A model generated the notes under the pieces. It did not search any database and was not told where the DNA came from. It saw only the letters and a list, made by a program, of their open reading frames with translations. Both the position numbers and the translations under genes were made by a program. Of a DNA stretch of 64,000 bases, positions 21,587 through 46,840 are shown piece by piece. The DNA comes from Flavobacterium buctense. GTDB taxonomy: Bacteria; Bacteroidota; Bacteroidia; Flavobacteriales; Flavobacteriaceae. How positions within the stretch are numbered: position 1 is the stretch's first letter; each line of letters starts with the position of its first letter. The stretch spans positions 1 through 64,000 of the forward strand of contig NZ_JACTAB010000008.1 of the NCBI RefSeq assembly GCF_014486695.1, written 5' to 3'.

Positions 21587-21602
21587 GACGTGTTTTTTTA
21601 AC

Positions 21603-21643
21603 CTTCATCTTGCTCAATCCACCTTGGAGAGCAAAATATGAAG
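21603..21643 (-). promoter_or_regulatory. Candidate structured RNA leader of rplQ
   Basis: The 61-nt rpoA-rplQ gap folds, by eye, into one long hairpin. CTTCAT (21603-21608) pairs with ATGAAG (21638-21643), GCTC (21612-21615) with GAGC (21629-21632), and TCCA (21618-21621) with TGGA (21625-21628), closing a 3-nt loop. The internal loops are asymmetric. There is no U-tract of a terminator directly after it, so an autoregulatory binding site is plausible. Confidence 0.55.
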
Positions 21644-21647
21644 TAAT

Positions 21648-22640
21648 TTATTCTTTATCTAATTTGTATTTACCTAAATCCATTCCGAACGTTAAATTCT
21701 TATTGGCAACCAATTCGTCTAACTCGGTTAGCGATTTTTTACCAAAATTACGGAACTTCATCAAGTCGTTTTTGTTGAAAGATACAAGATCTCCAAGGGT
21801 GTCAACTTCGGCTGCTTTCAAACAGTTCAATGCTCTTACTGATAAGTCCATATCAACCAATTTGGTTTTCAATAACTGTCTCATGTGTAATGATTCTTCG
21901 TCGTAAGACTCTGTTTGAGCAATTTCATCAGCTTCAAGAGTAATTCTCTCATCGGAGAATAACATAAAGTGGTGAATTAAAACTTTGGCAGCTTCTGTTA
22001 AGGCATCTTTTGGATTGATTGAACCATCAGTTTTGATTTCGAAAACTAATTTTTCATAATCTGTTTTTTGCTCCACACGGAAGTTTTCAATGGCGTATTT
22101 TACATTTTTTACCGGAGTAAAAATAGAGTCTGTAAAAATAGTACCAATGGCTGCATTTTGTTTTTTGTTCTCCTCAGCAGGAACATAACCACGACCTTTC
22201 TCGATCGTTAATTCCATGTTTAGGTTAACTTTGCTATCCAAGTTACAAATTACCAATTCCGGGTTTAACACCTGGAAACCGGAGATGAATTTTTGAAAAT
22301 CACCTGCTGTAATTTGGTCTTTTCCTGAGATTGAGATAGAAACCGTTTCATTATCTACATCTTCGATCTGACGTTTGAAACGTACTTGTTTAAGATTAAG
22401 GATAATTTCGGTAACATCTTCAACAACTCCTGAAATGGTAGAAAACTCATGCTCAACTCCTTCGATACGAACCGAAGTAATGGCATAACCTTCTAACGCA
22501 GAAAGTAAAACTCTTCTAAGTGCATTACCAACGGTCAATCCGTATCCCGGTTCTAAAGGTCTGAATTCAAACTTACCTTCAAAATCGGTTGAATCGATCA
22601 TGATAACTTTATCGGGCTTCTGAAAATTAAATATTGCCAT
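21648..22640 (-). CDS. rpoA: DNA-directed RNA polymerase subunit alpha
   Basis: A 330-residue alpha subunit. The N-terminal assembly domain has [20 protein letters not shown] and [13 protein letters not shown]. After a short linker, the C-terminal domain has the helix-hairpin-helix region around [20 protein letters not shown] and [14 protein letters not shown]. Length is typical. It lies 23 nt after rpsD in the alpha-operon order rpsM-rpsK-rpsD-rpoA-rplQ. Confidence 0.98.
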
Positions 22641-22663: not shown

Positions 22664-23269
22664 TTATTTGTTGTACAACTCTACGATTAATTGTTCTTTA
22701 ATGTTTTCTGGGATTTGAAGTCTTTGAGGAACAGAAACAAAAGTTCCTTCTTTAGTATCATTATTCCAAGTAATCCACTCATATACATGAGAAGAGTTGG
22801 CTAATGAACGCTCGATAGCTTCAACAGATTTAGATTTTTCACGAACAGCAACTTTGTCACCTGGTTTCAAGTGGTAAGAAGGGATATTTACCAATTCTCC
22901 GTTTACAGTGATGTGACGGTGAGAAACGATTTGTCTTGCCGCTCTTCTTGAAGGTGCAATTCCCATTCTGAATACAACGTTATCTAAACGAGCTTCGCAT
23001 AATTGTAAAAGGATTTCACCTGTTACACCTTTAGAAGCTGCTGCTTTTTCGAAAAGGTTTCTGAATTGTTTTTCTAAAATACCGTAAGAGTATTTAGCTT
23101 TTTGCTTTTCCATTAACTGGACAGCGTACTCAGATTTTTTACCTCTTTTTTTAGCCATCCCGTGTTGTCCAGGAGGATAATTTCTTTTTTCGAAGGATTT
23201 GTCTTCTCCGAAAATTGCTTCGCCAAATTTACGAGCAATTCTAGTTTGTGGACCAGTATATCTTGCCAT
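22664..23269 (-). CDS. rpsD: 30S ribosomal protein S4
   Basis: uS4, 201 residues, a primary 16S rRNA-binding protein. It has the N-terminal [20 protein letters not shown] and the S4 RNA-binding domain [14 protein letters not shown]...[17 protein letters not shown]. The N-terminal zinc-binding cysteines of some S4 proteins are absent. S4 is the autorepressor of the alpha operon in other bacteria, and here its gene follows the longest gap in the operon (115 nt), which can form a strong two-part helix. Confidence 0.97.
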
Positions 23270-23282
23270 TTTAAATTGTTTT

Positions 23283-23337
23283 AAGATTGAGATTATGAAT
23301 TCAGGTCACATCCTTCGATAATCTATTCGCCAATCTT
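23283..23337 (-). promoter_or_regulatory. Candidate structured RNA leader of rpsD
   Basis: The rpsK-rpsD gap contains two perfectly complementary, nested 7-bp helices. AAGATTG (23283-23289) pairs with CAATCTT (23331-23337), and directly inside it AGATTAT (23290-23296) pairs with ATAATCT (23318-23324). A 6-nt bulge (23325-23330) lies on one strand and the apical loop is 21 nt. It ends 13 nt before the S4 start codon. This is the place expected for an S4-binding regulatory leader; from memory, S4 leader motifs have been described in Bacteroidia. Confidence 0.65.
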
Positions 23338-23384
23338 GATTATACTTATTACTTGTTTAATTGATTGAAATAAATTCAATAAAA

Positions 23385-23768
23385 TTATACTCTACGTCTT
23401 TTAGGAGGACGACATCCGTTGTGAGGCATTGGCGTAACGTCGATAATTTCGGTTACTTCAATTCCTGAGTTATGAATAGATCTGATAGCAGACTCACGTC
23501 CGTTACCCGGTCCTTTTACATAAACTTTTACTTTTTTAAGACCAGCTTCTAAAGCCACCTTTCCACAATCTTCTGCGGCCATTTGAGCTGCGTATGGAGT
23601 GTTCTTTTTAGAACCTCTGAAGCCCATTTTACCGGCTGAAGACCAAGAGATAACTTCACCTTTTTTGTTTGTTAACGAAATGATGATGTTATTAAAGGTA
23701 GCATTAATATGAGCTTCACCCGTTGATTCAACGATAACTTTACGTTTTTTTGCAGTTGCTTTAGCCAT
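23385..23768 (-). CDS. rpsK: 30S ribosomal protein S11
   Basis: uS11, 127 residues, part of the platform of the small subunit near the mRNA exit. Family motifs include [40 protein letters not shown] and the C-terminal [18 protein letters not shown]. It begins 8 nt after rpsM. Confidence 0.98.
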
Positions 23769-23776
23769 ATTACTTA

Positions 23777-24151
23777 TTATTTAGTTGCTTTTTTCTTGTT
23801 AGCAACAGTTTTTCTTTTACCTTTTCTTGTTCTAGAGTTGTTCTTAGTTCTTTGTCCTCTTAAAGGAAGACCAGATCTGTGACGGATACCTCTATAACAT
23901 CCAATATCCATTAAACGTTTAATGTGCAATGAAACTTCTGAACGAAGCTCACCTTCAATTTTGTAATATGATACCGCATCACGGATTCCTCCGATTTCGT
24001 CATCATTCCAATCTTGAACTTTTTTATCTTGGCTCACTTGAGCTTTTTCTAAAATCTCAATAGCTCTACTTCTACCTACTCCGAAGATATAGGTTAAAGC
24101 GATAACTCCTCTTTTGTTTTTTGGGATGTCTACCCCTGCTATTCTTGCCAT
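23777..24151 (-). CDS. rpsM: 30S ribosomal protein S13
   Basis: uS13, 124 residues, in the head of the small subunit at the bridges to the large subunit. It starts [19 protein letters not shown], has the helix-hairpin-helix IFGVGRSRA, and the conserved [20 protein letters not shown] before a basic C-terminus. It begins 2 nt after rpmJ. Confidence 0.98.
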
Positions 24152-46652: not shown

Positions 46653-46752
46653 GGTTTTATTTTAACTATTGACTCTTGTCAAAAACACAGCCAAATTAAA
46701 AGTAATGCTAATTTGTCAGTTAGGAAAATTTAAAAGAAGCCTTTAGTTTGAA

Positions 46753-46840
46753 TTTAGCCCCGATTGAAGTGACACGAAGTATAACGGAAAGCGGGAACAC
46801 GGTTTAAAAAATGCCTGAACGATTGGCTCCAAAAACTTTT
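46753..46840 (+). repeat. Dispersed intergenic repeat, copy D
   Basis: An 88-bp plus-strand copy. It starts TTTAGCCCCGATTGAAGTG, has ACGGAAAGCGGGAACA and ends GGCTCC and ACTTTT. It reaches to within 18 nt of the rarA start, and its 3' part supplies the TTG of the putative rarA promoter. Confidence 0.85.

Follow-up and report, generated by a model that had tools for sequence, protein, structure and literature searches.

Does the hairpin that precedes rpsD at this locus serve as an operator for ribosomal protein S4 and, if so, how could a structure that stops short of the start codon close the translational start of that gene? The window (i.e., the whole 64,000-nt stretch of DNA that was analysed) contains, on its minus strand, the series rpsK, leader, rpsD, rpoA and rplQ, whose four genes were recognised by NCBIfam models as those for S11, S4, RNA polymerase alpha and L17: rpsK occupies 23385-23768 (NF003698, TIGR03632), rpsD, the presumed regulated gene, 22664-23269 (NF003717, 280.7 bits; TIGR01017, 248.9 bits), and rpoA, directly downstream of rpsD, 21648-22640 (NF003516, 470.2 bits; TIGR02027). 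An earlier reading of the letters by themselves (hereafter, the sequence-only reading) had placed two nested, perfect 7-bp helices with a 6-nt bulge and a 21-nt apical loop at 23283-23337, in the gap between rpsK and rpsD and 13 nt before the S4 start codon. The description is exact for the minus strand: The gap measures 115 nt (23270-23384), and 13 nt (23282-23270) separate the hairpin from the rpsD ATG at 23269.

The complete hairpin (23283-23337, minus strand) consists of an outer helix, a 5' internal loop, an inner helix and a conserved apical element. In the outer helix, the 5' strand AAGATTG (23331-23337) pairs with the 3' strand CAATCTT (23283-23289), which covers positions -20 to -14 relative to the start of rpsD; in the inner helix, AGATTAT (23318-23324) pairs with ATAATCT (23290-23296), and in both helices all seven pairs are of the Watson-Crick type. 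The bulge at the junction of the two is the internal loop GCGAAT (23325-23330). What was taken for a 21-nt apical loop (23297-23317) is not open: The Rfam alignment places in it the pair G23316-C23297, AGG (23314-23312) opposite CCU (23305-23303), and the 3' bulge AAUU (23301-23298), and this is the most conserved part of the structure. C23317 is bulged, and AUGUGA (23311-23306) forms the terminal loop.

Taken by itself, the sequence is unremarkable. The folding energy of the transcribed strand is ordinary (z = -0.32, with 71 of 200 shuffles equal or better), and nested pairs of 7-bp helices are not rare: Of 3000 dinucleotide shuffles of the gap, 21 contain one, as do 10 of the 1112 115-nt tiles of the window. 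Since the DNA was tiled on each of its two strands, these ten correspond to about five places in 64 kb. Because the single sequence does no better than chance, the case for the hairpin rests on comparison with relatives.

The core of the hairpin (23291-23323, minus strand) matches the Rfam family RF03141, S4-Flavobacteria, over model positions 1-33 of 33, with 48.1 bits against a gathering score of 35.2, and this is the sole match of the leader in Rfam 15 at gathering score. The sequence-only reading had pointed to S4 leader motifs described in the Bacteroidia and had named an Rfam search as a check. The leader is indeed a described S4 motif, of the S4-Flavobacteria type and not of the S4-Bacteroidia type: A search with RF03139 was positive in the control Bacteroides ihuae and gave nothing in this genome. 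That reading had also made its proposal depend on conservation of the paired bases among relatives, and here it was borne out, both helices covarying. Position and core are those of the family: The leader lies directly 5' of rpsD, followed by rpoA and rplQ, and has C-G-A-AGG-A ... CCU-AAUUC within a covarying hairpin, with model pair 9-22 as the exception. It is a canonical member of an r-leader family that is already catalogued; the match itself is therefore ordinary, and what matters is the refinement.

The S4-Flavobacteria motif was predicted from covariation by Eckert & Weinberg (2020), in whose description it lies 5' of rpsD, rpoA and rplQ, is assigned to S4 by precedent, and resembles neither rRNA nor the Bacteroidia motif (PMC7247131); the leaders from that work were incorporated into Rfam (PMC7779021). 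In the open-licence PMC literature, we found no experimental work (S4 binding, repression) on the S4-Flavobacteria leader. The leaders analysed here share with the RF03141 model the sequence core, the secondary structure and the position before rpsD-rpoA-rplQ, but the 33 nt of the model reach no further than the inner helix, whereas a conserved outer helix and a 5' loop bring the leader to 55 nt in the window and its relatives. The S4-Bacteroidia motif is likewise a hairpin before rpsD-rpoA-rplQ, and its published description gives the two motifs no meaningful similarity (PMC7247131). With the S4 operator of the E. coli alpha operon (RF00140, Alpha_RBS), the leader has in common the operon and S4 as presumed ligand; however, that operator is described as a pseudoknot at the start of rpsM (PMC10931766), whereas the leader here is a hairpin before rpsD, and Alpha_RBS is not among the Rfam matches of the leader at E up to 5. 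Nor, with the best match of each clan considered, did any other leader family match at E up to 5.

In the Firmicutes S4 leader, a GUAA element is reported to imitate 16S rRNA (PMC7247131); in contrast, the leader analysed here has no similarity to 16S beyond chance. When three core sequences were compared with the 16S rRNA of this genome, 244, 114 and 214 of 300 shuffles aligned equally well, by a local alignment that considers sequence and leaves mimicry of shape possible. This absence agrees with what is stated of the motif in its published description (PMC7247131), and it supplies no mimicry argument for recognition by S4.

RF03141 (counted at E up to 0.001) has one match in this genome, and it was found in 130 of 150 genomes of the genus (our own included, one match each), in 166 of 199 genomes of a family sample that spans 198 genera, and in 53 of 246 genomes of an order sample, 52 of which belong to the same family and one (G348) to another. 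None of the 14 control genomes in the genus, family or order searches had a match. Five of the genus misses were checked: In three, nothing in the assembly matches S4, and in the other two only a fragment of S4 is present, at a contig end. At all 182 loci that were read (from 181 genomes, our own included, which are part of all genomes with a match), rpsK lies on the same strand, the core is inside the rpsK-rpsD gap, and rpsD starts with ATG. Two family genomes (L321, L322) possess S4 and lack the leader, their gaps measuring 15 and 16 nt, and in L318, also of the family, the leader looks degenerate.

A second set of leaders comes from named contigs with rpsD loci related to a Crocinitomicaceae-type S4: Among the best 80 of at least 595 rpsD stretches, model R1 (see below) recognised 61 leaders, and 19 stretches, that of Crocinitomix catalasitica included, had none. 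The gene order is the same at 60 of the 61 leader loci, the remaining contig stopping too early. The motif also occurs in isolates of Fluviicola and Brumimicrobium (NCBI class Flavobacteriia), and ten class-level genomes outside the GTDB order match R1, all ten matching RF03141 as well and carrying the match before rpsD. An extension of the motif beyond the Flavobacteria was considered and dropped: In one of these genomes, of family f33, S4 has 99% identity to that of a record labelled Crocinitomicaceae (such labels being mixed and some plainly wrong), and NCBI places the Crocinitomicaceae in the Flavobacteriia. A second site in one genome (G472; 31.3 bits, below the cut-off) was taken as chance. 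One record, CP034120.1 (L244), titled as a Glaciecola amylolytica chromosome, has the same leader and encodes an S4 with 85% identity to the one in a genome of Crocinitomicaceae type; its title is probably wrong.

Alignment A1 comprises 94 of the 182 loci, picked by a redundancy filter, and R1, which includes the outer helix, was built from 94 sequences; the window's own sequence is in that training set, and R1 matches the window leader at G000:C49:23281-23339 with 60.9 bits. Several tests each point to a conserved outer helix. Without any alignment, the longest helix that the two flanks of one leader can form has a mean of 6.93 bp in a set of 170 distinct leaders, and the highest mean in 5000 random re-pairings of their flanks was 5.00 bp. 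In a MAFFT alignment of the 94 leaders, which is not fitted to structure, six outer pairs hold 115 double-changed cells against 57.0 after shuffling, a number that none of 500 shuffles reached. Of the outer-helix cells, 69.3% are paired, compared with at most 57.3% after sliding by 1 to 3 columns. Relatedness as a factor is not taken out by the shuffles; the sliding control retains it. In the 61 loci of the second set, which lie outside R1, the six outer pairs hold 83 double-changed cells against 32.1, again with 0 of 500 shuffles as high. Because the alignment of this set was fitted to R1, the alignment-free test was repeated there on 60 of the 61 loci (L265, whose core was not parsed, was left out), and the flanks of the same leader gave 5.33 bp against 4.52 bp for crossed flanks (0 of 5000 permutations): The signal is weaker, yet present. 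Two other measures do not discriminate, namely how many pairs show a double change at all (451 of 500 shuffles as high in the first set and 343 of 500 in the second) and, in the second set, the number of outer-helix pair types (166 of 500).

The sequence of the outer helix drifts while its pairing is kept. This helix, absent from the 33-nt RF03141 model, is conserved and covaries, and it appears to be new here. Counted from a 6-bp inner helix, the 5' internal loop has 4-7 nt in 161 of the 170 distinct leaders, and the 3' side opposite to it has 0-1 nt in 164 of them.

Within the core, double changes affect five of the seven inner-helix pairs in alignment A2 (94 rows) and six of the seven in A3 (60 distinct rows). 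The other four pairs, G-C and AGG/CCU, are invariant in both alignments, and since they do not vary, covariation speaks neither for nor against them. The pair that Rfam draws between model positions 9 and 22 is A.G in the window leader and non-Watson-Crick at 82 of the 83 loci of the genus (A.G 58, G.G 24, A-U 1), whereas at the 99 loci outside the genus it is A-U at 91, A.G at six and G.U at two; as judged from these sequences, this pair is not supported. Tandem G.A pairs or a K-turn were also rejected as readings: A and G at position 9 combine with U and G at position 22 in all four ways, and, compared with K-turn geometry, the bulge is on the wrong side. The terminal loop ranges from 4 to 15 nt in the 182 loci and from 3 to 7 nt in A3.

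Not every leader of the family is seen by the published model. We followed 20 of the 33 family genomes that have no RF03141 match; 19 had an rpsD locus, and 16 of these loci (L303-L317, L320) have the same architecture minus the bulged C. In 15 of the 16, an A-U pair replaces the canonical G-C, which L315 retains, and in L371 an A facing a U stands in place of the bulged C. At E up to 0.5, Rfam saw one of eight variant loci (L311, at 30.0 bits, below the cut-off). Long insertions or register shifts led us to leave L307 and L315 out of alignment A4, and L309, L310, L313, L317 and L320 also out of A5 and of the subtype model, R2, which was built from nine sequences. R2 matches 97 of the 199 family genomes, canonical ones included, and 22 match R2 only (nine of these being the genomes that built it), so that RF03141 or R2 is found in 188 of 199 genomes rather than 166; 21 of the 22 were read (G322 was left out), and in all of them the match lies before rpsD. 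The subtype missed by the RF03141 model at its cut-off is a new addition to the known family, and the natural variants of the leader (i.e., no bulged C, A-U for G-C, and the A-U that replaces the bulge in L371) would indicate which parts the ligand can dispense with.

We consider it probable that, in the alpha operon, the leader serves the rpsD(-rpoA) part as a cis-acting operator for S4, with a hairpin that is clamped upon S4 binding. The mRNA would fold into a stacked hairpin, the inner helix presenting an invariant, asymmetric internal loop (5' CGR; 3' KAAUUC, beside AGG/CCU), and it is this loop that free S4 would most likely recognise. If S4 were in excess over 16S rRNA, it would bind the loop and clamp the whole hairpin, including the outer helix, whose 3' strand at -14 to -20 borders the start region; the 30S subunit would then be kept off this unpaired, A-rich region, which is used without Shine-Dalgarno pairing, and S4 translation would drop. 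The free hairpin would just clear the start region, and would block it when S4 stabilises the structure or adds bulk. Translational autoregulation by S4, which the sequence-only reading had suggested, is a well-placed prediction on these grounds, repression presumably acting on translation rather than at another level and perhaps extending to rpoA. With its conserved outer helix, the leader need not reach the start codon in order to act: Closing that helix is a concrete means by which translation could be blocked at a start used without Shine-Dalgarno pairing.

What is reported of F. johnsoniae bears on this geometry: Like its phylum, it is without Shine-Dalgarno sequences, and within -20 to +20 less pairing goes with higher ribosome density, A-12 and A-13 being stimulatory, according to the account of that work (PMC6847099). 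Over 177 distinct leaders, the predicted pairing probability averages 0.78 at -20 to -14 (0.96 in the window leader) and 0.22 at -13 to -7, an arrangement of paired and open positions that suits a clamp. Two features of the same predictions temper this. The rpsD start codon is half paired (0.53), which is a point against the clamp, and among 12 genes of the window, pairing at -20 to -14 is also predicted to be high for rplF (0.84), rplQ (0.79) and rpsK (0.71), so that it is not diagnostic of a leader. An rpsD'-gfp reporter used in F. johnsoniae is described as covering -25 to +12 (PMC9976891) and, if the leader of that species is placed as in the loci of the genus, would be too short for it; in that case, the reporter keeps little beyond one outer-helix strand and says nothing on the leader.

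We infer S4 as the ligand of the motif from the published rule of precedent (PMC7247131). A true r-leader could instead respond to another product of the operon (S11, L17 or RpoA), or to S4 only within a complex, and this we regard as unlikely, though Eckert & Weinberg emphasise that leaders frequently respond to a protein other than the product of the first gene (PMC7247131) and our sequence test found no rRNA mimicry. Gene order cannot separate the candidate ligands, since it is identical wherever it is visible (182 of 182 loci, and 60 of 61 in the second set). The case against such a ligand is that the leader follows rpsK and precedes rpsD, that rplQ has a conserved element of its own in many genomes of the family, and that, in E. 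coli, S4 is described as the established repressor of this operon (PMC10931766).

An RNA-processing or stability hairpin, one that adjusts the amount of upstream mRNA relative to S4-RpoA mRNA with no protein ligand, is likewise improbable. Such a role would suit the intercistronic position, the drift of the outer helix and the few genomes that lack the leader. The promoter motif TAnnTTTG does not occur on the minus strand of the gap (23270-23384), which would also suit it and led us to reject a promoter there. However, the loop nucleotides AGGA..CCU.AAUU are kept in the Flavobacteriaceae, in the second set and in the second subtype, which suggests a bound ligand more than a stem by itself. Transcription attenuation in place of translational control, a mechanism known from other r-leaders (PMC7247131), is very unlikely, since there is no terminator-like site on the minus (coding) strand from 23260 to 23800 and what follows the hairpin is rich in A and not a run of U. 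The chance of a mere palindrome in an AT-rich spacer, for which the ordinary folding energy and the similar helix pairs in other tiles might speak, is close to nil, this reading being already refuted by the covariation and fixed placement in relatives.

The S4 leader is not the only candidate structure of this operon. In the gap between rpoA and rplQ, a candidate hairpin lies at 21605-21636 on the minus strand (the hairpin extending over about 21599-21642), with the conserved layout TCATATTTTGCTC-(variable stem)-GCAAGATGA. The pattern TTTTGCTCN{8,38}GCAAGATGA occurs in 76 of the 199 family genomes, and the reversed control pattern in three. At 29 of the 30 loci that were fetched (our own included; the exception is L438), it ends 12-19 nt before the rplQ ATG, with rpoA upstream, and in nine of 20 other genomes read the hairpin was found by eye; it is missing from three genomes of the genus (L394, L396, L397). 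Judged by eye, its apical stem covaries. Rfam leader models gave no match to it at E up to 5, and the L17 leader is described in the publication as one of Actino- and Proteobacteria (PMC7247131); the rplQ hairpin is a candidate for an L17 leader or a second S4 site.

A different conserved hairpin stands before rpsD in Sphingobacterium, Pedobacter and family f52 (L300, L301, L325-L330, L385-L393), with the form UUUUAAAG-CUAAGANUC-(stem)-UGAUA-CUUUAAAA. Model R3, built from eight sequences, matches nine of 247 class genomes, all of f52 and with one match each, and all nine matches fall between rpsK and rpsD. In the inner stem, four pairs show double changes, a number reached by 24 of 500 shuffles, and 12 cells are double-changed against 4.5 (0 of 500 shuffles). 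Rfam gave no match in L300 and L301 at E up to 2, or in L325, L327, L329 and L330 at E up to 0.5, and our literature search found nothing on this hairpin; it is possibly an unlisted S4 leader.

A joint reading, which we offer as plausible though short of probable, would give the Flavobacteriaceae alpha operon a pair of independent RNA operators, one being the 55-nt leader of rpsD and the other the uncatalogued rplQ hairpin. The S4 leader would itself be in two parts, a recognition loop that can lose its bulged C and exchange G-C for A-U, and an outer clamp helix that closes a start site without Shine-Dalgarno pairing. Since the Sphingobacteriaceae would use a third, unrelated hairpin before rpsD, S4 control would on this joint reading have been reinvented by lineage in the Bacteroidota.

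In family f53 (L348, L349, L350, L354), the rpsK-rpsD gap is long (101-139 nt) and holds a common element, GGAGCTG or GGAGTTG ... CAGCTTAAATAAT or CAACTTAAATAAT, before rpsD; Rfam leader models do not match within these gaps at E up to 0.5. Elsewhere in the window, at 46752-46802 on the plus strand, lies a match to the Flavo-1 RNA (RF01705) with 44.2 bits against a gathering score of 42.
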